NCBI RefSeq assembly: GCF_030704685.1
Contig: NZ_JAUZDX010000020.1
Location: 1-64,000, forward strand
Direction: 5' to 3'
DNA: 64,000 bases
Source of the DNA: Acidovorax sp. A1169
GTDB lineage: Bacteria > Pseudomonadota > Gammaproteobacteria > Burkholderiales > Burkholderiaceae_C
Positions 37,492 to 47,196 of the stretch are shown piece after piece; position 1 is the first letter of the stretch; every line of letters starts with the position of its first letter. The translations under genes were made by a program, and so were the position numbers. The notes beneath the pieces are model-generated. The model saw only the letters and a list, made by a program, of their open reading frames with translations, had not been told where the DNA came from and ran no database searches.

Positions 37492-38322
37492 TCAGGCGAA
37501 GCGCAGCTTGTTCGCCGGCTGCGGCACGGCCGCTGCGGCAATGCCCTGCACCACGTCGCCCACCACGATCACCGAGGGGCTGGCCAGTCCCTCGCGGGCA
37601 ATGGTGGCGTGCAGCTCGCCCAGTGTGGTCACGGCATGGCGCTGCTGCGGCAGGCTGGCATGCTGGATGATGGCCACGGGCGTGGCGGCGGGCAGGCCGG
37701 TGAGCAGCTCCTGCTCGATGGTGGCGGCACCGCTCACGCCCATGTAGATCACCAGCGTCAGCTTGGCGTCGCGTGCGGTTGCGGCCAGTTGGCGCCAGTC
37801 GGTGCCGGCGTCGCCGGGCTTGGCATGGCCGGTGACGAAGACCACGCCGTGGGCATGTTCGCGGTGCGTGAGCGGCGCGCCCAGCGAGGTCAGGCCCGCC
37901 AGGCCGGCGGTGATGCCGTTGACCACCGTGACCGGCACGCCTGCGGCGCGCAGGTGCTCCACCTCCTCGCCGCCGCGGCCGAAGACGAAGGGGTCGCCAC
38001 CCTTGAGGCGCACCACGTTCTCGCCCTCGTTCACAGCCATGAGCATCAGCTTTTCGATGAAGGCCTGCGGCGTGCTCTTGCAGCCGCCGCGCTTGCCCAC
38101 GTGCACGATGCGCGCCGTGGGCGAGGCGTAGGCCACGATGGCATCGCTCACGAGGTCGTCCACCAGCAGCACGGTGGCCGCCTGGATGGCCTTGAGCGCC
38201 TTGAGCGTGAGCAGCTCCGGATCGCCGGGGCCGGCGCCCACCAGGGTGCAGGAGCCGCCGGTGCCCAGGTGCGGGCGGTCGTGCTGGGGCGAGGGGGCGG
38301 ATGGATTCGTGGGGCGGTTCAT
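37492..38322 (-). CDS. cobA: Uroporphyrinogen-III C-methyltransferase
   Basis: A 276-residue SAM-dependent tetrapyrrole methylase that makes precorrin-2, the precursor of siroheme. Seen: LVGAGPGDPELLTLKALKAI at about 27-46, VVRLKGGDPFVFGRGGEE, and GITAGLAGLTSLGAPLTHRE. There is no fused CysG dehydrogenase/ferrochelatase domain. In nas clusters this enzyme supplies siroheme for nitrite reductase. Its start overlaps ybiB by 4 bp. Confidence 0.92.
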   Translation of the reverse strand: MNRPTNPSAPSPQHDRPHLGTGGSCTLVGAGPGDPELLTLKALKAIQAATVLLVDDLVSDAIVAYASPTARIVHVGKRGGCKSTPQAFIEKLMLMAVNEGENVVRLKGGDPFVFGRGGEEVEHLRAAGVPVTVVNGITAGLAGLTSLGAPLTHREHAHGVVFVTGHAKPGDAGTDWRQLAATARDAKLTLVIYMGVSGAATIEQELLTGLPAATPVAIIQHASLPQQRHAVTTLGELHATIAREGLASPSVIVVGDVVQGIAAAAVPQPANKLRFA

Positions 38323-39254
38323 GGCTGTGTCTCCGGCATTGCGGCGGTGGCTGTTTGACCGGTGATCTGCAAGATATGTTCCACCTGCCGCGTGAGGGCG
38401 GGCGGTGTCGGCAATTCGCCTGCGAGCACGCGGCGCGTGTAGTCGGCCGTGGTGGCCACGTCGATCTCGATCGGCAGGCCGGGCACCTCGCTCGCGGTGC
38501 CAGGCTCCTGCTCCTGCAGCACATGGTGCGCCCCGGCCACGAAGGCGTCGTAACGGGGTGTGCGGCGCGGGTCGGCCGCCACTTCGCCCTCGAGCCCGCG
38601 CGAGAGCAAGGCGTTCATGCCCATGGCGCTGAAGGTGTTTTGCAGCATCTCGAAGTATTCGGGGTGCGTGTAGCTCGTGACCACCACCGCCGCACCGGCA
38701 CACGGGTTCATGAGCTTGACGGCGCTGTGCCCCGCGTTGCGCAGGCCCACGGTCTGGCGCACGGCCAGCAGGCGGGCCAGCCCCGGGTGCAGCAGGCCGG
38801 TGGCGATGTGCGCCACCTCGCCATCGGCCACCTTGCGCGGCGCGGTCAGCGCCGGGATGTGGAGCGCTTCGAGCACGTCGGAGGCGAGGATGCGCCGCGC
38901 CTCGGTGCGCATGCCGTGCAGCAGCACGGGCAGGCCCTCGCGCGCCAGCAGCAGGGCCAGCAGCGGGGTGAGCACGGGCAGCTTGCGCGCGCCGTTGTAG
39001 CTGGGCAGCACCACCAGCGGGCGGTCGCTGGCGGGCAGCAGGGCCATGCGGGCATGCGTGGCGTCCAGAAAGCCGCACATCTCCTCGGCCGTCTCGCCCT
39101 TGATGCGCATGGCCAGGCAGAAGGCGCCGATCTCCAGATCGGTCACGCTGCCGTCCAGCACCTGGCCGAACAGGTCCGTGGCCTGCTCGCGCGTGAGCGG
39201 CTTGGCCCCGCGCGGGCCGCGGCCGATTTCCTTGATGTACTGGCTGATGCCCAT
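38319..39254 (-). CDS. ybiB: DNA-binding protein YbiB (TrpD2 family)
   Basis: A 311-residue paralogue of anthranilate phosphoribosyltransferase. The fold signature is seen in LTREQATDLFGQVLDGSVTD and NAGHSAVKLMNP. YbiB/TrpD2 proteins bind nucleic acid and lack the anthranilate-pathway role. Its position between nasA (62 bp upstream) and cobA (ATGA overlap) matches many betaproteobacterial nitrate clusters, but why it belongs there is unknown. Confidence 0.85.
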   Translation of the reverse strand: MGISQYIKEIGRGPRGAKPLTREQATDLFGQVLDGSVTDLEIGAFCLAMRIKGETAEEMCGFLDATHARMALLPASDRPLVVLPSYNGARKLPVLTPLLALLLAREGLPVLLHGMRTEARRILASDVLEALHIPALTAPRKVADGEVAHIATGLLHPGLARLLAVRQTVGLRNAGHSAVKLMNPCAGAAVVVTSYTHPEYFEMLQNTFSAMGMNALLSRGLEGEVAADPRRTPRYDAFVAGAHHVLQEQEPGTASEVPGLPIEIDVATTADYTRRVLAGELPTPPALTRQVEHILQITGQTATAAMPETQP

Positions 39255-39316
39255 GGTGCGTGAATGGCTCTTTGAAGTGGGACTGGATATTTTCTCGCAA
39301 CCCAGCGAACTTTTGG

Positions 39317-42157
39317 TTATATGGCGGCGATTGCGATGGCCGCTTTGGCGAGAGGCCCCGCGGCGCGCACCATGCGCTTGAGCTCGGGCAGGCAGGAGCC
39401 GCAGTTGGTGCCGCAGCGCAGCTCGCCCTGCAGCTGGGCCAGGCGCTCGTCATCCGTGCCGTGGCAGTGCGCCAGTTGGCCGGTGATGGCCACGTCGGTT
39501 ACGTTGAAGCAGGTGCACACCGTCTTGCCGCGCGACTGCACCGCTACCGGGGCCTTGGCACTGGGCACGAGCAGCAGGCGGCCGTAGCTCTGCGCGGGCA
39601 GTTCATCCTGCAGCAGGGTCTTGATCCAGCCCTGGGCGCTGGTGTCGCCGGCCAGCACGATGGCTTCGAGCGTGCTGCTGCCGTCGTCCCGCCGGGCCAG
39701 GCGCGCGGCGCGGCGCTGGCCGCGCTTCCTGTCGGCATAGCGCAGGGTGTCGGCGGTGGCCAGGCCCAGCACGGCCTCGATTCGCTCGATCAGCGCGTCC
39801 GGTGGCGCTTCGTGGCCGGCGGCGCGCAGCAGCACGCCGGTGCGCTCGCGGCCTGGCTCCGACAGCGGGGTGTTGTTGCTGAAGGGCACGCAACTGGCAA
39901 ACGGGAAGGCATCCATCAAGGCCGACAGCGACTCGCGTGCGGCCAGGGCCTTGTCGCCCGGCAGCCAGGCCATGGCCAGCAGCGTCCACGGCATCTCGGC
40001 CTTGAGGATCTTCACGGCCGCGTGCTTGAGTTCGGGCTGCTTGGAGGTGGGGCAGTAGGCCGAGGTGGTCAGTGCATTCACGCCCGACAACCGCTCGCCG
40101 GAAGACGACTGGCCGCTGAGGTACTCGCTGCCCCAGTGCATGGCCATGAAGGCCTGCGACAGGCCCATGCTGGCGTCGGCCAGCACCGGTACGACGATGG
40201 AGCCGCGCTTGCTTGTGACGTGCACCAGGTCGCCGCTGTGCAGCTTGCGCTGCGCCATGTCGTCCGGGTGCATCTGTACCGAGGGCTCGGCCACATGGCC
40301 GAACAGCCGGCCCAGCGTGCCGGTGCGGCTCATGCCGTGCCACTGGTCGCGCAGGCGGCCGGTGGTCATGCCGAAGGGGAAGCGCGATTCGCGCTGCTCG
40401 GCCACGGGCTGCCAGGCATGGGCCGCAAAGCGCGCACGGCCATCGGGCGTGGGGTAGATGCCGTCTTCGTACAGGCGCACCTTGCCGCTGGCAGCACCCT
40501 CGGGCAGCGGCCACTGCTGCGGGCCTTGTGCTTCAAGCTGCAGCCAAGAGAGGCCGGTGATGTCCAGGTCGCGCCCGCGCGTGGTCTCGCGGTGCTCGTT
40601 CCATACCGCCTCGGCCCCGGCATCGGCGTCGTCGGTGGTGTAGGGGAACAGGCTGGGTGCGCCAAGGCGCAGCCGTGCTTCCAGCTGGTGCGCAAACTGC
40701 ACCGCAATGGCCCAGTCGTGGCGCGTCTGGCCGGGTGCCGGCACCGCAGTGCGCACGCGGGAGATGCGGCGTTCGCTGTTGGTCACGGTGCCGGTCTTCT
40801 CGCCCCAGGTGGTGGCGGGCAGCAGCAGGTCGGCGTACTGCGCGGTGGCGGTGGTGGCAAAGGCCTCCTGCAGCACCACGAACTCGGCGCGCTCCAGCGC
40901 GCGGCGCACGGTGGCCTGGTCGGGCATGCTCTGCGCGGGGTTGGTGCAGGCGATCCACAGCGCGCGGATCTCGCCGTCGGCGGCGGCCTGGAACATCTCC
41001 ACCGCCGTCTTGCCAGGGCGCGAAGGCACGTCGGCCACGCCCCACATCGCCGCCACCTCGGCGCGGTGCGCGGGGTTGGCGAGGTCGCGGTGCGCGCTCA
41101 GCAGGTTGGCCAGGCCCCCCACCTCGCGCCCGCCCATCGCATTGGGCTGGCCGGTCAGCGAGAAGGGGCCCGCGCCCGGCTTGCCGATCTGCGCCGTGGC
41201 CAGGTGCAGGTTGATGAGTGCGGCATTCTTGGCCGTGCCGCTGGTGCTCTGGTTCAGGCCCTGGCAGTACAGGCTGAGCGTGGCCTTGGAGCTGGCGAAC
41301 CACTGCGCGGCCGTGGCCAGGTCGGCCTCGGGGATGCCGCACACTGCGCTCACGCGCTCGGGTGTGCAGTCGGCCACCAGGGCCTTGAGCGCCTCGAAAC
41401 CGGTGGTGTGCGCGCCGATGTAGGCGGCATCGACCCAGCCTTCGCGCAGCATGAGGTGCAGCATGCCGTTGAACAGCATCACATCGCTGCCCGGCTGTAT
41501 CGGCAAAAACAGATCGGCCATGCCCGCGGTGTCGGTGCGGCGCGGATCGGCCACGATGACCTTCATGCCCGGGTTGGCCGCGCGCGCGTCCTCGATGCGC
41601 CGGAACAGGATGGGGTGCGCCCAGGCCGCGTTGCTGCCCACGAAGAACAGGCATTGCGCGTGCTTCACGTCGTCGTAGCAGGCGGGCGGCGCATCGGCCC
41701 CCAGCGTGGCCTTGTAGCCGGCCACGGCGCTGCTCATGCACAGGCGCGAGTTGGTGTCGATGTTGTTGGTGCCGATGAGGCCCTTGGCGAGCTTGTTGAA
41801 GACGTAGTAGTCCTCGGTGAGCAACTGGCCGCTGACGTAGAAGCCGACGGCGTCGGGGCCGTGCTGCTCGATGGTGTCGGCGAATTTCTGGCTCGCCATG
41901 TCCAGCGCGGTATCCCACGTGATGGGCAGGGCCTGCTGGCCGCGCTGTGTGCGGTGCAGGGGGTGGAGCAGGCGGGTTTGCAGGGTGACGGGGCTGGCTG
42001 CGGTGAGGTGCAGCGTGGAGCCCTTGGTGCACAGGCGGCCGAAGTTGGCGGGGTGGGTCGGGTCGCCGCGCACGCCGGTGATCTGCGGGCCTTCGGATTC
42101 GATGATCACGCCGCAGCCTACGCCGCAGTAGGGGCAGGTGGATTTGGTTTCTGTCAT
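39317..42157 (-). CDS. nasA: Assimilatory nitrate reductase catalytic subunit
   Basis: A 946-residue cytoplasmic molybdoenzyme reducing nitrate to nitrite. The N-terminal [4Fe-4S] site uses Cys 8, 11, 15 and 43 (CPYCGVGCGV, then GRLCTKG). The bis-MGD domains follow (NTNSRLCMSSAVAGYKATLG, GLNQSTSGTAKNAALINLH, GQPNAMGGREVGGLANLL) with the dinucleotide-binding domain around 590-700. The C-terminus adds a BFD-like [2Fe-2S] domain (VCTCFNVTDV ... CGTNCGSCLPEL), as in Klebsiella NasA. No signal peptide. The gene upstream in the operon is separated by a 694-bp palindromic element that ends 53 bp before this ATG. Confidence 0.94.
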   Translation of the reverse strand: MTETKSTCPYCGVGCGVIIESEGPQITGVRGDPTHPANFGRLCTKGSTLHLTAASPVTLQTRLLHPLHRTQRGQQALPITWDTALDMASQKFADTIEQHGPDAVGFYVSGQLLTEDYYVFNKLAKGLIGTNNIDTNSRLCMSSAVAGYKATLGADAPPACYDDVKHAQCLFFVGSNAAWAHPILFRRIEDARAANPGMKVIVADPRRTDTAGMADLFLPIQPGSDVMLFNGMLHLMLREGWVDAAYIGAHTTGFEALKALVADCTPERVSAVCGIPEADLATAAQWFASSKATLSLYCQGLNQSTSGTAKNAALINLHLATAQIGKPGAGPFSLTGQPNAMGGREVGGLANLLSAHRDLANPAHRAEVAAMWGVADVPSRPGKTAVEMFQAAADGEIRALWIACTNPAQSMPDQATVRRALERAEFVVLQEAFATTATAQYADLLLPATTWGEKTGTVTNSERRISRVRTAVPAPGQTRHDWAIAVQFAHQLEARLRLGAPSLFPYTTDDADAGAEAVWNEHRETTRGRDLDITGLSWLQLEAQGPQQWPLPEGAASGKVRLYEDGIYPTPDGRARFAAHAWQPVAEQRESRFPFGMTTGRLRDQWHGMSRTGTLGRLFGHVAEPSVQMHPDDMAQRKLHSGDLVHVTSKRGSIVVPVLADASMGLSQAFMAMHWGSEYLSGQSSSGERLSGVNALTTSAYCPTSKQPELKHAAVKILKAEMPWTLLAMAWLPGDKALAARESLSALMDAFPFASCVPFSNNTPLSEPGRERTGVLLRAAGHEAPPDALIERIEAVLGLATADTLRYADRKRGQRRAARLARRDDGSSTLEAIVLAGDTSAQGWIKTLLQDELPAQSYGRLLLVPSAKAPVAVQSRGKTVCTCFNVTDVAITGQLAHCHGTDDERLAQLQGELRCGTNCGSCLPELKRMVRAAGPLAKAAIAIAAI

Positions 42158-42210
42158 GTTCTTGTCGTGGTTGCGGCGTGCTTGTTGTTGGGGCGGGGGC
42201 CGGGGTGTGC

Positions 42211-42904
42211 GCCCGGCGGCGCAGTAACTTTCTTTTGCTTCGCCAAAAGAAAGTCACCAAAGAGAAGACGACCCCCAGTCTGCGTCCCCCGTTCGCCCTG
42301 TCGGGCGAACGGGGGCAACCTGCGATGCTCGGTCCTGGGGTGGTGCCGCAGAACTCGCTACGTTCTTCGAACTCCGCTCAAACAGCTGCGGCAAGTCAGA
42401 TGACGAAGTGCGTGTGTCCTTCGGCACACGCACCCACCCCAGCTCCTGCGCTTCTCGGCGCAGCCAGCAGAGGTGGGGAGCGGGTACCGCACGGCTGCTG
42501 CTTCGCAGCTGCGCCTGGGGTCGGGGGCGCGCGCGGTGCGCGCTGCCGACGAAACTGGCGCCATCGCCCTGGCGAGCCGAGCGCAGCGAAGGACCGCGGT
42601 GCCGAGCGAAGCAATGGCCCGAGTGGAGCCCGTTCCCACCCCCTTCTGACCGTGCCGAGAAGCGCAGGGCCTGGGGTGAGCGCGTGCCGAAGGACACGCG
42701 CATCGTGAACTGACTCACCGCGGTTGTCCGAGCGGAGTTCTCCCGCAGGGGGAACGCAGCGAGTTCCGCGGTGCACCCCAGGACCGAGCATCGCAGGCTG
42801 CCCCACTCGCCCAACGGGCGAGTGGGGACACGGGCAGCGGGGTCGCCTTTCTTTTGGGTACTTTTCTTTGGCGAAGCAAAGAAGAAGTACCTCGGCCGCC
42901 GGGC
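42211..42904. repeat. 694-bp near-palindrome with paired hairpins
   Basis: Two arms of about 345 bp are inverted, imperfect copies of each other, centred near 42558. The outer tips are GCCCGGCGGC (42211-42220) and GCCGCCGGGC (42895-42904). Each arm has three hairpins at matching places: CAAA-type with loop CTTCGC (42228-42253; 42861-42886), CCCC-GGGG type (42286-42315; 42801-42827), and CACGC-type with loop TCCTTCGG (42408-42433; 42680-42701). Stem sequences differ between arms but pairing is kept. Open frames across it are mirrored on both strands and low-complexity, so I judge it non-coding. It fills the 802-bp gap in the nas operon. Confidence 0.85.
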
Positions 42905-42959
42905 CGAGACCCGGCCTCCACCCTCAGCACAAAAACAGAAGCAACCAGAAGCCACGAAC

Positions 42960-43808
42960 TCACCCAGCCAAAGCAGCATAAAGACCAGTCACCCGATCCA
43001 TGCTCGACAACAAATTCTCACTCGCCACAAACACCTCCGACACCTGCCGCGCCGTGCTGCCCGCAACCCCACCCGCCTGCATCCGCTGCAAAGCAGCATC
43101 AAAGAACACCCACTGCCCATCCGCCAGCAGCAGCTCCTGCCGAATCCGGTCATTGGCCTCAGGCGCCTTGCGCAGCACCTCGGTCGCCGCGATGAACTCG
43201 GTGCGCGCCTTGGCAATCTCCGCCGCCGCAACGGCAGCATCCACCGGTAACTGCGCAGCCAGGTAGAACTTGGCCATGCGCTGGCTCAGCATGCGCTGGC
43301 GGCCCGCCACGTTGACCAGGTGGCCGACGGGCTTGCCCGAGGCCGACTCGTACTGCACCGTGCCCTGGTGCGCCAGGGCCAGCACCTTGGCGTCGGCCTG
43401 CAGCATCGCGGTGGCGCCGGCCAGTGCGGGCGTGCCGCCCAGCAGCGTGGCCTTGTGTGAAACCCAAGCCGCATCGAGCTGGCCGTAGGTGTCGCGGATG
43501 GTGGGATTCGGGGCGTAGGCCTTGAGCTCTGCCAACTGGCGCTCGAACAGCGCGACGGACTGGTCCAGCACCTGGCGTGCCGCAGGCTCCTGCACCTTGT
43601 GGGCCAGGGCCAGCCAGGCCTTGCCCATGCGCTGGCTCAGCATGCGCTGGCGCCCGGCCTTGTTGATGGCGTCGTTGAGGTTGGCGACCTGGGCATTCGC
43701 CGGCCGGGAGACGAGGGCCAGGGTGCCGGCCACGGTGGCGGCGCCTGCGGCGGCACCGGCCTTCAGCAGAAAGGTTCTGCGCTGCAATGCGGGTGAGGGC
43801 ATGGTCAT
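42960..43808 (-). CDS. Tat-exported P-box (PilJ-domain) protein
   Basis: A 282-residue predicted periplasmic protein. The N-terminus has a Tat-like signal (RRTFLLKAG, twin Arg at 10-11, then AANAQ-like cleavage near residue 40). Two P-box motifs follow, INKAGRQRMLSQRM (48-61) and LVNVAGRQRMLSQRM (164-178), so it is a tandem of PilJ/NIT-like nitrate-sensing modules without any output domain. It lies between the NasC-like flavoprotein gene and nasA. A nitrate/nitrite-binding or sensing role is inferred from P-box homology (NarX, PilJ) and context. Confidence 0.8.
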   Translation of the reverse strand: MTMPSPALQRRTFLLKAGAAAGAATVAGTLALVSRPANAQVANLNDAINKAGRQRMLSQRMGKAWLALAHKVQEPAARQVLDQSVALFERQLAELKAYAPNPTIRDTYGQLDAAWVSHKATLLGGTPALAGATAMLQADAKVLALAHQGTVQYESASGKPVGHLVNVAGRQRMLSQRMAKFYLAAQLPVDAAVAAAEIAKARTEFIAATEVLRKAPEANDRIRQELLLADGQWVFFDAALQRMQAGGVAGSTARQVSEVFVASENLLSSMDRVTGLYAALAG

Positions 43809-43843
43809 GGGCGTGTCCTTTCTGGTCATGGCGGGGGTGGGGT

Positions 43844-45073
43844 TCATTCGGTGCCCGCTGGTCCGAACATCAGCTGGTCGCGGATCTCGTCCACCGTGCG
43901 GCCTTCGCGCAGCAGCTCGAAGTACCAGCTGCCGTCCACCGTGTCGCCATACAGGCAGGCGCCCACCAGCTTGTCGTCCTTGATCACGAGCTTCTTGTAC
44001 GAGCCGGTCACGGGGTCGCTCATGACGATCTCCTCGGTGCCTTCGCCGCCCTGGAAGTCGCCGGCGCTGAACAGGTCGATGCCGGTCACCTTGAGCTTGG
44101 TGGAGGTGAGCGAGCCCTGGTAGCGGTCGATGCCCAGCTCCGCCAGGTGGTTGGCCAGCACCTTGCCCTGCTCGAACAGCGGCGCCACCAGGCCGTAGGC
44201 GATGCCCCGGTGGGCAGCGCACTCGCCCACGGCGTAGATGCGTGCATCGGTGATGGTCTGCAGCGTGTCGCTGACCACGATGCCCCGGTTCACATGCAGG
44301 CGCATCTTCTCGGCCAGCGCCGTGTTGGGGCGTATGCCCACGGCCATCACCACCAGGTCGGCGGGTACCTGGCTTCCGTCCTTGAACTTCACGGCGGTCA
44401 CGCGGCCCTCGGGGCCGCCCACCAGTTCCGCAGTCTGGGCGTTGAGCAAAAACTGCATGCCGCGCTCCTGCAGCGACTGCTGCAGCATCACGCCTGCCAC
44501 GCCGTCGAGCTGGCGCTCCATGAGGGTGTTGCCCACGTGCACCACGCTCACCTGCATGCCCCGCTTGACCAGGCCGTTGGCCACCTCCAGCCCCAGCAGG
44601 CCACCGCCGATGACCACGGCATGCCGGTAGGTGGCGGCGGCAGCGATCATGGCCTCGGTGTCGGCGATGTCGCGGTAGGCGAGCACGCCGGGGAGGTCCT
44701 TGCCCGGGATGGGCAGGATGAAGGGGTTGGAGCCCGTGGCCAGGATCAGGCGGTCGTACTCGGCGCTGATGGCCTCGCCCGCCGCATTGGTGGCATGCAC
44801 CACGCGGCGCACGCGGTCCACCTCGGTCACCGTGAAGCCCGTGTGCAGGGTGATGGCGTGGTTCTTGTACCAGGACCAGTCGTTGAGGATGATTTCGTCG
44901 ATTGTCTGTTCGCCCGCGAGCACGGGCGACAGCAGGATGCGGTTGTAGTTGGGGTGCGGCTCGGCCCCGAACACCGTGATGTCGTAGAGGTCCGGGGCGA
45001 TCTTGAGCAGCTCTTCCAGGGTGCGCACACCGGCCATGCCATTGCCCACCATCACCAGCCTGGATTTTTTCAT
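43844..45073 (-). CDS. NasC-like FAD/NAD electron-transfer subunit of nitrate reductase
   Basis: A 409-residue flavoprotein equal to the N-terminal FAD/NAD(P)H half of NirB (RLVMVGNGMAGVRTLEELLK, HPNYNRILLSPVLAGEQT, VVIGGGLLGLEVANGL, YAVGECAAHRG). It stops exactly where NirB would continue into its [2Fe-2S] and siroheme modules. That size and context suit the NADH-dependent electron donor to NasA (Klebsiella NasC, Bacillus NasB). No siroheme nitrite reductase gene is visible in the window. It is the first gene behind a sigma-54/ANTAR control region. Confidence 0.86.
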   Translation of the reverse strand: MKKSRLVMVGNGMAGVRTLEELLKIAPDLYDITVFGAEPHPNYNRILLSPVLAGEQTIDEIILNDWSWYKNHAITLHTGFTVTEVDRVRRVVHATNAAGEAISAEYDRLILATGSNPFILPIPGKDLPGVLAYRDIADTEAMIAAAATYRHAVVIGGGLLGLEVANGLVKRGMQVSVVHVGNTLMERQLDGVAGVMLQQSLQERGMQFLLNAQTAELVGGPEGRVTAVKFKDGSQVPADLVVMAVGIRPNTALAEKMRLHVNRGIVVSDTLQTITDARIYAVGECAAHRGIAYGLVAPLFEQGKVLANHLAELGIDRYQGSLTSTKLKVTGIDLFSAGDFQGGEGTEEIVMSDPVTGSYKKLVIKDDKLVGACLYGDTVDGSWYFELLREGRTVDEIRDQLMFGPAGTE

Positions 45074-45105
45074 CGCAGCCCCCACGCCCATCGAAAACAC
45101 AAAAC

Positions 45106-45162
45106 AAAAAAGGCGCCCACACGATGCTGCTTCGATGTCTCGAAACCGCATGTGGGGACGCC
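45106..45162 (-). terminator. Leader terminator of the nasC-like/nasA operon
   Basis: Minus strand: arm 45151-45162 (GGCGTCCCCACA) pairs, with a small bulge, with 45112-45121 (TGTGGGCGCC) and is followed by TTTTTT at 45106-45111. It lies between the two-hairpin ANTAR site and the start codon, as expected for the terminator that NasT overrides. Confidence 0.8.
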
Positions 45163-45180
45163 TTCGTCCTTGCAAGCCCG

Positions 45181-45226
45181 GGTGCGCCATTGCACCGTGG
45201 ACCCGCGTGGCCCTTGCGGGCCGTGC
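45181..45226 (-). promoter_or_regulatory. ANTAR target leader, nasC-like operon
   Basis: Minus strand. Hairpin P2 (45181-45196) is GGTGC-AATGGC-GCACC, a hexaloop with A at position 1 and G at position 4, the signature of ANTAR targets. Upstream P1 (45209-45222, with outer pairs to 45205/45226) has the same geometry, but its hexaloop is CGCAAG, which lacks A1/G4 and can close to a GCAA tetraloop. Confidence 0.75.
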
Positions 45227-45235
45227 CTTCGAACA

Positions 45236-45252
45236 AGCAATGCGTGTGCCAA
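45236..45252 (-). promoter_or_regulatory. Sigma-54 promoter, nasC-like operon
   Basis: Minus strand TTGGCACACGCATTGCT: TGGCAC and TTGC with GG-N10-GC spacing, one mismatch from consensus. Predicted transcription start is near 45225, at the foot of P1. Upstream to the kinase gene (45253-45438) I see no gene; it contains a 17-bp dyad TGGTGC-CACGC-GCACCA at 45313-45329, a possible activator site. Confidence 0.8.
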
Positions 45253-45438
45253 CCCGCCGCCCCGATCCGGGGCGTCCCGTCTTTCTGGCGGTCCGTGAGC
45301 GCAACCCCATGGTGGTGCCACGCGCACCATGTTGCATTGCACCATGATGGGGATGAAATTCTCGCATTGCCTTGCTGGGGTGCAACGGCGGGCTCCCTGT
45401 GCACCAGCTTGGGCATGAAAGATGCTTGCCTGTGGTGC

Positions 45439-47196
45439 ATGAGCTTTGAACTGGATTTTGGCTGTGTCTCGCAGGCCGGGCGCAAGGAGGGCAACGAGGA
45501 CTTTGCGGCCCTGGTCGAGGGCCGTGGACGCGACCTGCCCCGTGGCGCCATTGCCGCCCTGGCCGATGGCGTGAGTGCGGGGGGCAATGGGCGCGAGGCG
45601 GCCCAGACCACGGTGCGCACGCTGCTGTCCGACTACTTCGCCACGCCCGAGACCTGGGACACCACGGTGGCCCTGGACCGCATCCTCAGTGCCCACAACG
45701 CCTGGCTGGCCGCCATGAACCGGCGGCGCCAGCCCGCCGTGGGGCTGACCACGCTCACGGCCCTTGTGCTGCGCGGCCAGTCCTTCACAGTGGCGCACGT
45801 GGGCGATACGCGCGCCTACCTGCTGCGCGACGGGCGGCTGCAGCAGCTTACGGCCGACCATGTGATCGCGCAGCGCGACCTGGCCCACCAGCTCACGCGC
45901 GCCCTGGGGCTCGACGACCATGTGGTGGTGGACTACAGCCAGGGGGAGCTGCAAAGCGGCGACCTGTTCCTGCTGGTGTCCGACGGTGTGCACGGCAGCC
46001 TGCCCGAGCGCGAGCTGCGCAGCCTGATGCGCCAGGGCCTGGCCCCGCAAACGCTGTGCGAGGAGCTGGTGCGCTCAGCCCTGCGCAGGGGCAGCAGCGA
46101 CAACGTGACCGCCATGGCCGTGCAGGTGCGCGGCGTGCTGGAGGCCACCTTGCAGGACGAATCGCGGCGCGCGCAAGAGCTGCCGGTGCTGCCCCTGCTC
46201 AAGGTGGGCGATGCGGTCGACGGCCTGGTGGTCACCGCGCTGGTGGCCGACAGCGGCATCCACAGCATCTACCAGGTGCGTCACCCTGCCAGCCAGCGCC
46301 TGTATGCGCTCAAGACCCTGAACCCCCAGCGCGCGCACGATGGCGAAGAGCGCGCCACGCTGGCGCACGAGGCCTGGGTGGCGCGGCGCATGCAGTCGGG
46401 CAGCGCTGCGGCCCATCTGGCCTGCCTGAACGACTGGCCTGCCGCCGCATCAGGCACCAGCAGCAGCTTCTTTTACCTGTTGTACGACTGGCACCGGGGC
46501 GAGACCCTGGGGCAGCAACTGCGCCGGCGCCAGCCCTTTGGCGTGGCGCGTACGGTGGGCGTGCTCACCCAGGCCGTGCGCGTGCTCGGCCTGTTGCACC
46601 GCCAGGGCGTGGTGCACCGCGACATCAAGCCCGACAACCTGCACCTGGGCGACGACGGCGTGCTGCGCGTGCTGGACCTGGGGGTGGCGCTGAGTGGCCG
46701 CGAGCCCGAGGCCACGCGCCTGCTGCATGCGGGTACCCCGAGCTACATGAACCCCGAGCAATGGCCCGGCTACGAGCGCAGTGCCGATGGCGAGACCGGG
46801 CAGATGCCCGATGCCGGCAGCGACCTGTTCGCACTGGGCGTGACGCTGTACCAATTGCTCAGTCACGGGCGCCTGCCCTATGGCGACGTGGTGCCCTACC
46901 AGATCGGGCGCTACCACCGCGACCCGGTGGCCCCGAGCCGCCACAACCCCGAGGTGCCCATCTGGCTGGACCAGATCGCCTTGAAGGCCGTGGCGCGCAA
47001 CCGCGCACAGCGCTTCGAGACGGCCGAGGAACTGCTGCTGGCGCTGGAGCGCGGCGCCTCGCGGCCGCTGCACGCGCATGCACCGCTGGCGCCGCTGATG
47101 CAGCGCGACGCCACGGCGATCTGGAAGATCGCGCTGGCGGTGAGCGTGCTGGTGAACTTGCTGCTGGTGTACTGGGTGTTGTTTTTGCCGAGGTAG
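45439..47196 (+). CDS. Bifunctional PP2C phosphatase / Ser-Thr protein kinase
   Basis: A 585-residue fusion. Residues about 1-240 are a PP2C phosphatase (KEGNEDF, ALADGVSAGG, VAHVGDTRAYLLRDG, SDGVHGS, GSSDNVTAM). Residues about 260-550 are a protein kinase with Lys in YALKTL, HRDIKPDN, a variant DLG in place of DFG, and PEQW for APE. A C-terminal membrane helix (IALAVSVLVNLLLVYWVLF) anchors it. It is divergent from the nasC-like operon. Similar fusions occur in nitrate-assimilation loci of other proteobacteria, which suggests regulation of uptake or reduction, but no target is known. An in-frame ATG at 45415 is an alternative start. Confidence 0.88.
   Translation: MSFELDFGCVSQAGRKEGNEDFAALVEGRGRDLPRGAIAALADGVSAGGNGREAAQTTVRTLLSDYFATPETWDTTVALDRILSAHNAWLAAMNRRRQPAVGLTTLTALVLRGQSFTVAHVGDTRAYLLRDGRLQQLTADHVIAQRDLAHQLTRALGLDDHVVVDYSQGELQSGDLFLLVSDGVHGSLPERELRSLMRQGLAPQTLCEELVRSALRRGSSDNVTAMAVQVRGVLEATLQDESRRAQELPVLPLLKVGDAVDGLVVTALVADSGIHSIYQVRHPASQRLYALKTLNPQRAHDGEERATLAHEAWVARRMQSGSAAAHLACLNDWPAAASGTSSSFFYLLYDWHRGETLGQQLRRRQPFGVARTVGVLTQAVRVLGLLHRQGVVHRDIKPDNLHLGDDGVLRVLDLGVALSGREPEATRLLHAGTPSYMNPEQWPGYERSADGETGQMPDAGSDLFALGVTLYQLLSHGRLPYGDVVPYQIGRYHRDPVAPSRHNPEVPIWLDQIALKAVARNRAQRFETAEELLLALERGASRPLHAHAPLAPLMQRDATAIWKIALAVSVLVNLLLVYWVLFLPR

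Follow-up and report, generated by a model that had tools for sequence, protein, structure and literature searches.

A dispersed, apparently undescribed DNA element of Acidovorax and relatives with covarying, triplex-capable hairpin arms and a strand-asymmetric scar in its flanks

Several described systems resemble parts of the element reported here. The bacterial intrastrand triplex motif BoxC / PIT / TM-ECO, as presented by Holder et al. (2015, PMC4666352), combines a pyrimidine, a purine and a second purine tract, is dispersed between genes and is tied to genome instability; it is described as one short, G/C-rich motif of fixed sequence. REP/BIME sequences and their RAYTs (PMC2817692) are characterised as dispersed extragenic hairpins, often in inverted pairs, and MITEs, ERIC and Correia elements (PMC10969869) as non-coding, repeated, inverted-repeat sequences. 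The BRE of betaproteobacteria (PMC3110155) are intergenic repeats reported from Bordetella and Comamonadaceae and scarce in Acidovorax; they consist of units of 75-91 bp, often in tandem. Perfect palindromes are reported to be lethal in E. coli, and interrupted palindromes, engineered and cut by SbcCD, suffer replication-dependent breaks that are then repaired by recombination (PMC4245961). Fragile inverted repeats in yeast raise mutation on both sides (PMC3681665).

The window analysed here is a stretch of 64,000 nucleotides of Acidovorax sp. A1169. In it, an element of about 780 bp lies between two minus-strand genes, that of a PilJ-domain protein upstream and that of a nasA-type molybdopterin reductase downstream. 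Its two arms, each about 300 nt long, face head to head as an imperfect long palindrome. The ends are similar on both sides, with terminal inverted repeats of the MITE kind (TGGTTGC...GCAACCA) and conserved tails to ~42168 and ~42947. A first-pass annotation had recognised a 694-bp near-palindrome with three hairpins per arm; the arms and the stems it quoted are present at their positions and the three hairpins exist, but the tails make the element larger and the paired regions of each arm exceed three (H1, H2, H3, a long-range stem, H5 and an enclosing stem). The features have the following positions in the window:

42168 to 42947 (approximate), no strand assigned: whole element with two inverted arms (conserved ends in 18 aligned copies; letters checked; single-strand fold)
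42194 to 42336, plus strand: outer part of the left arm (H1-H3), covariance model R1 (119.7 bits, E 1.5e-26)
42226 to 42268, plus strand: left triplex-capable motif, with pyrimidine tract 42226-42237, purine tract 42244-42253 and third purine tract 42259-42268, the last with one mismatch to the mirror
42286 to 42315, plus strand: hairpin H3 of the left arm, stem CCCCCGTTCGCCC/GGGCGAACGGGGG (letters checked)
42334-42342 with 42435-42442: enclosing stem of the left arm
42344 to 42393, plus strand: long-range stem of the left arm, TGCCGCA/TGCGGCA (42344-42350 pairs with 42387-42393)
42408 to 42433, plus strand: hairpin H5 of the left arm, stem GTGCGTGTG/CACACGCAC, loop TCCTTCGG (pairing counts; letters checked)
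42680 to 42701, minus strand: hairpin H5 of the right arm, stem GCGCGTG/CACGCGC (letters checked)
42716 to 42773, minus strand: long-range stem of the right arm, CACCGCGG/CCGCGGTG (pairing counts; letters checked)
42780 to 42920, minus strand: outer part of the right arm, covariance model R1 (117.5 bits, E 4.9e-26)
42801 to 42827, minus strand: hairpin H3 of the right arm, stem CCCCACTCGCCC/GGGCGAGTGGGG (letters checked)
42846 to 42886, minus strand: right triplex-capable motif, with third tract 42846-42855, purine tract 42861-42870 and pyrimidine tract 42877-42886, the last with a small insertion
41860 to 42167 (approximate), plus strand: left flank, G/T-rich strand toward the element, 5' part of nasA (skew, codon and substitution data)
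42948 to 43250 (approximate), minus strand: right flank, G/T-rich strand toward the element, 3' part of the PilJ gene (skew, codon and substitution data)

Three ORFs overlapping the element were tested and none had a Pfam match, while the hairpins show compensatory change, in agreement with the initial view that structure and not protein is kept. The description of an element splitting the nas operon was fair but incomplete, since in most of the other informative Acidovorax genomes PilJ and nasA are separated by a Rieske (nirD-like) gene that is absent here.

The element is dispersed. The search for further copies proposed by the first-pass annotation yielded many, in this genome and in relatives. 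At least 16 complete copies were found in the genome itself (query positions 1-694; 40 of 101 candidates scored), besides at least three more that are almost complete but truncated by contig ends, and shorter pieces, which lay mostly at contig ends. Thirty-seven of 60 relatives had a match. A covariance model of one arm, suggested at the same time, was built from 39 outer arms (R1) and finds both arms in the window; its matches cover at least 74 of 200 genomes and at least 59 of 141 genera in the family and at least 61 of 369 genomes in the class (58 from beyond the family), all lower bounds with up to 16 (family) and up to 9 (class) candidates scored per genome. Exact matches to the core occurred in records of Polaromonas, Rhizobacter, Vogesella and Thiobacillus among the matches listed (80 of 120 stretches). 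A description of the element was not found in the literature searched, exact hairpin strings included, with subscription papers largely outside that search; it is apparently an undescribed dispersed DNA element of Acidovorax and its relatives.

Partial and rearranged forms were also observed. A Pasteurella multocida record, far from the family, carried, after dapF, 48 bp that match only the triplex-capable core (L211:1501-1548); a lone outer hairpin H1 stood beside a full copy (L014:1399-1425), and half an element with one arm lay inside a contig of this genome (L205:1805-1947). Arm pairs 1.0-1.9 kb apart enclosed ORFs at L123, L124, L125 and L126, encoding a methyltransferase in L126 and without a Pfam match in L123 and L125. 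In genome G430 (L134 / L143), three arms of the same orientation alternated with toxin-antitoxin-like genes (HTH_37, PIN and NYN domains). In G514, a single arm was part of a MITE of ~440 bp with 19-bp terminal repeats (L128:1510, 3867 and 12181; L129:1805); read by eye, two of the four copies had ~10-bp duplications, and two copies shared a longer duplicated segment.

In an alignment of 32 arms from 16 copies, loops and linkers were fixed and the stems changed on both sides together, a pattern that recurred in 46 arms of 23 elements among the matches listed. The compensatory stem changes first noticed within one element were thus borne out on a far larger scale across copies. The long-range stem had 24 variants in 111 arms, and 764 of 777 positions were Watson-Crick pairs, with no G-T, ten A-C and three other combinations. 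Together with the number of complete copies, such pairing goes far beyond what chance would give. For H5, 34 variants were counted in 115 arms (967 Watson-Crick, 7 G-T, 29 A-C, 32 other), and H2 in 120 arms gave 1309 Watson-Crick, 25 G-T, 86 A-C and 20 other positions. An A-C pair corresponds to G-U on the opposite strand, and most of these lay at one H2 position. Measured against what is familiar from RNA families, G-U-type pairs are scarce in the stems. Pairing in the stems is nearly complete, although alleles are numerous, and intermediates are rare. Alleles are transferred blockwise between arms and between copies, and the element is a mosaic because they combine freely among copies; since they differ in length, RNAalifold returned a poor structure for the full-arm alignment. 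At the nasA site the elements of G032 and G000 were 76.6% identical, with block-wise divergence, between flanks of ~93% identity; at two other shared sites the element was about as similar as the flanks (88.7% and 86.9%). In 12 of 17 comparison windows the G032 element at nasA resembled another copy more than its ortholog, a count biased because the best of 18 others was set against one ortholog; the ortholog comparison with G063 was limited by runs of N in that assembly. The two arms of one element were less alike than randomly paired arms (0.737 versus 0.803, 0 of 5000; 1 of 5000 in a second set). Loss of near-perfect palindromes would lead to such a difference, though two inherited arm types would give the same picture.

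Compensatory change had been taken to imply selection on structure. Far more of it is now seen across copies, but alone it is no proof of selection, because template-switch ('quasipalindrome') correction together with recombination between copies can also yield it. Such correction could keep the hairpins perfect with neither selection on structure nor function, in line with the near-perfect stems with few intermediates, the shift of alleles as blocks and the (biased) window comparison of the G032 element. As a complete account we consider it unlikely: template switching alone leaves unexplained the mirror-oriented third tract, which does not act as a Watson-Crick partner, as well as the deep conservation and the scar in the flanks. 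It can be compatible with the explanation by a structural element.

The third tract follows a different rule. The purine tract after hairpin H2 mirrors the purine strand of that hairpin, and the alleles change together: AAAAGAAA occurs with AAAGAAAAGG, AAGAGAAA with AAAGAGAAGG, GAAAGAAA with AAAGAAAGGG and AAAGAAAA with AAAAGAAAGG. In a first set of 121 arms, 115 were usable and six were dropped for want of a usable H2; the mean mirror match was 7.887 of 8 positions versus 7.023 for re-dealt tracts (0 of 2000 shuffles), and the 15 distinct combinations show it too. Of 251 arms in a larger set, deduplicated and selected without requiring mirror symmetry, 224 had a perfect mirror over 8 positions and 27 did not. 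Perfect mirrors made up 14 of 15 arms in the class, 32 of 36 in the family list (this group, 'family, outside genus', also includes the three genus loci L097, L098 and L106), 119 of 127 in named records and plasmids and 59 of 73 in genus and window, and shuffles never reached the observed matching (0 of 1000 in each of the four sets). A perfect direct-repeat match was found in 13 of the 251 arms, and seven rows fitted a direct repeat better than a mirror. The arms hence contain in sequence what an intrastrand DNA triplex requires, a pyrimidine-purine hairpin and a mirror-oriented third purine tract. The mirror covariation obeys the rule of an antiparallel purine-motif triplex and so points to DNA rather than RNA, in which purine-motif triplexes are stated to be impossible (PMC4666352). 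It is evidence for a DNA structure and no proof of folding in cells; judged from the sequences, the constrained structure looks like DNA, and the arms may form triplexes in the cell.

The DNA around the copies carries a directional signature. For ~250-500 bp on either side, the strand running toward the element is rich in G and T and poor in C. At 50-100 bp from the 16 copies of this genome the GC skew was +0.323, positive in 31 of 32 flanks; at 100-200 bp it was +0.239, positive in 30 of 32, and past 600 bp it had faded to about zero; 15 other Acidovorax copies showed +0.364 at 100-200 bp (29 of 30), compared with about zero in 372 random control flanks. The skew was present in 27 of 27 flanks of named Acidovorax at 150-250 bp and, at 50-150 bp, in 30 of 34 flanks of Polaromonas and 12 of 12 of other taxa. 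It also occurred with compact arm pairs outside the family (19 of 22) and, less often, with single arms (7 of 11) and with wide pairs (6 of 8). Unpaired arms of the named set (45 arms, 13 usable flanks) had a weak skew, positive in 10 of 13, and six other inverted repeats, few in number and small, had none. Significance figures for these data are too good because orthologous sites and related genomes are not independent. Skew at 50-150 bp was positive in all 39 flanks with a gene directed toward the element and in all 23 with a gene directed away, directions being taken from a codon-bias caller. The flank signature is a DNA-level, transcription-independent one, and transcription or R-loops are rejected as its cause, the skew being alike for both gene directions. 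A Chi-like motif was also rejected as the cause of the G/T-rich flanks: GCTGGTGG occurred in 4 of 62 flanks and its complement in none, and the words enriched there come from two other dispersed repeats.

Upstream of nasA, many Acidovorax loci (e.g., L054, L056) carry other dispersed repeats. One, with CAATAGCT...AGCGCTT..ATAAGCGC, resembles the A. ebreus motif GCTTAT(N)5AAGCG as given in PMC5217627; another contains TTCGACAAGCTCA.

A structured RNA or an attenuator had been among the first suggestions, and a bidirectional terminator at gene ends belongs to the same kind of explanation. The positions of the copies speak for it: they favour the 3' sides of genes (11 convergent, 17 tandem and 3 divergent of 31, a raw count without baseline and with one flank corrected by hand), often a few bases past the stop codon, and, with the opposite strand taken as the RNA, G-U would account for 125 of 3252 stem positions versus 32 on this one, mostly at the one H2 position. 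Nevertheless, wobble pairs are scarce, the core follows a triplex-type mirror rule and the scar is transcription-independent; no Rfam family reached threshold in positions 38000-47000 of the window or in 19 loci, and three matches in all stayed below it. The RNA reading is disfavoured by these results and appears very improbable.

Occupied and empty sites allow the scar to be related to the element. Relatives with empty sites, a further suggestion of the first-pass annotation, were found: 47 Acidovorax genomes were examined, one of which (L055) was dropped with too little upstream sequence, and of the 46 informative ones 31 had no element detected upstream of nasA and 15 had one there, in either of two arrangements. 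In the last 30 codons of nirD, third-position C amounted to 7.3% beside the element and 34.5% in genomes without it. Over 60 codons the GC3 skew of nirD was 0.638 in 11 occupied and 0.058 in 22 empty genomes (rank test p 4e-6, uncorrected for relatedness; L075 and L096 dropped from the empty-site groups, nirD not found in 3 of 25 empty genomes), and two of the 22 empty genomes were also high (0.44, 0.60). For PilJ the third-position skew was 0.746 (three occupied) versus 0.038 (four empty), while that of nasA differed little between occupied and empty sites (0.593 versus 0.480; 0.675 versus 0.559). Consensus changes on the element-facing strand of PilJ were C>T 18, C>G 12 and A>G 8, compared with 2 changes of complementary type (38 versus 2), and in nirD C>T 7, C>G 7 and A>G 2 against none (16 versus 0). 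The first 80 codons of nasA had 18 versus 4 directed changes on the antisense strand and 14 versus 13 further on; the second occupied group showed no asymmetry in nasA (4 versus 3). Other types of change occurred as well, e.g., seven C>A in nasA. Compared with G000, the empty genome G024 had a lower skew on both sides of one further site. At nirD and PilJ the scar is strong with the element and mostly absent without it.

Sites are gained and lost, and the occupied and empty ones, the many copies and the two different insertion places upstream of nasA would suit a non-autonomous mobile element, MITE-like or REP/BIME-like, with a transposase acting on the hairpins and the scar as a by-product of repeated excision or transposition. 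The single arm inside the G514 MITE, with its terminal repeats and by-eye duplications in two copies, and the widely spaced arm pairs with an ORF between them in four genomes also agree with mobility. Yet target-site duplications, as expected of a MITE, were not found in 31 copies (longest shared edge word 4.16 nt for own and 4.13 nt for mismatched pairs). A search of this genome for the Y1_Tnp family, the RAYT transposases linked to REP/BIME, gave one locus of 3.3 kb and no arm in it, so that a link to a Y1 transposase is rejected for this genome. Sites are shared with close relatives, none of 50,697 phage records matched the element, and plasmids matched in 6 of 72,556 records. Transposition seems an improbable origin of the pattern.

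We favour, with about even confidence, a dispersed, non-coding, structural DNA element that repeatedly causes breakage or exposes strands and whose copies undergo exchange. The arms would fold in single-stranded DNA, most likely during replication, the hairpin and nearby third purine tract of each arm forming an intrastrand purine-motif triplex beside perfect short hairpins. The folded arms would be a recurrent site of breakage or strand exposure, and resection would leave 3'-ended single strands on either side. Damage and error-prone filling of these strands (C>T, C>G, A>G) could then produce the strand-asymmetric scar in the adjoining genes; G:C to C:G changes in UV-treated Caulobacter are reported to depend on imuB/imuC (PMC3901139). 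Repair from other copies would shuffle the hairpin alleles, and selection may act against arms of one pair that resemble each other too closely, as perfect palindromes are lethal in E. coli. The data establish the family, its anatomy, the covariation of hairpins and of three strands, and the scar with its dependence on the element at nirD and PilJ; triplex folding in cells, the breaks, the enzymes acting and exchange, rather than replacement, as source of the mosaic we infer from these patterns. Two-ended breakage with resection fits best with a sustained exposure of 3' strands on both sides; a one-sided replication gap would not be symmetric, and transcription would follow gene direction. SbcD, a subunit of the palindrome nuclease, was over the cut-off in 6 of 36 genus genomes (G000-G035), unevenly distributed, and below it in this genome; with and without SbcD the flank skew was present, in 17 of 21 flanks of one group and 45 of 47 of the other (one element, L027 and L056, being counted twice). 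The E. coli SbcCD route therefore cannot be the general cause, and SbcCD is ruled out as general nuclease.

It has long been asked whether intrastrand DNA triplexes form in cells and matter there, mostly with arguments drawn from chemistry. We put forward tentatively, at somewhat less than even confidence, that paired triplex-forming elements are a widespread bacterial class of chronic two-sided break or exposure sites, giving local directional hypermutation and recombination at fixed positions. If so, the mirror covariation would provide, for the first time to our knowledge, evolutionary evidence of an intrastrand purine-motif DNA triplex maintained in living cells. Because the three-strand alleles co-change in many species and the neighbouring genes bear a strand-specific, distance-dependent scar, both structure and effect come within reach of tests, for which natural copies, empty sites and single arms offer ready controls. 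The scar is also a warning that near such elements codon use and substitution patterns reflect local mutation and not selection.

Compared with BoxC / PIT / TM-ECO, the Acidovorax motif is A-rich, variable with three-strand covariation, and set in head-to-head arms of ~300 nt; the available text on that motif (PMC4666352) mentions no directional flank scar, Acidovorax or Xanthomonas. From REP/BIME, as portrayed in PMC2817692, it differs in being an order of magnitude longer, with no GTAG-type head noted and no linked RAYT found, and from MITEs, ERIC and Correia elements, as portrayed in PMC10969869, in its size of ~780 bp, its covarying internal architecture and the lack of a detected target duplication. 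BRE is set apart by its description in PMC3110155, not by sequence. The E. coli and yeast palindromes are artificial constructs, whereas the Acidovorax copies are natural and SbcD is absent or below the cut-off in 30 of 36 genus genomes. By analogy, the element would work like a fragile palindrome and the E. coli triplex motifs, from which it differs in size, paired arms, covariation and scar.
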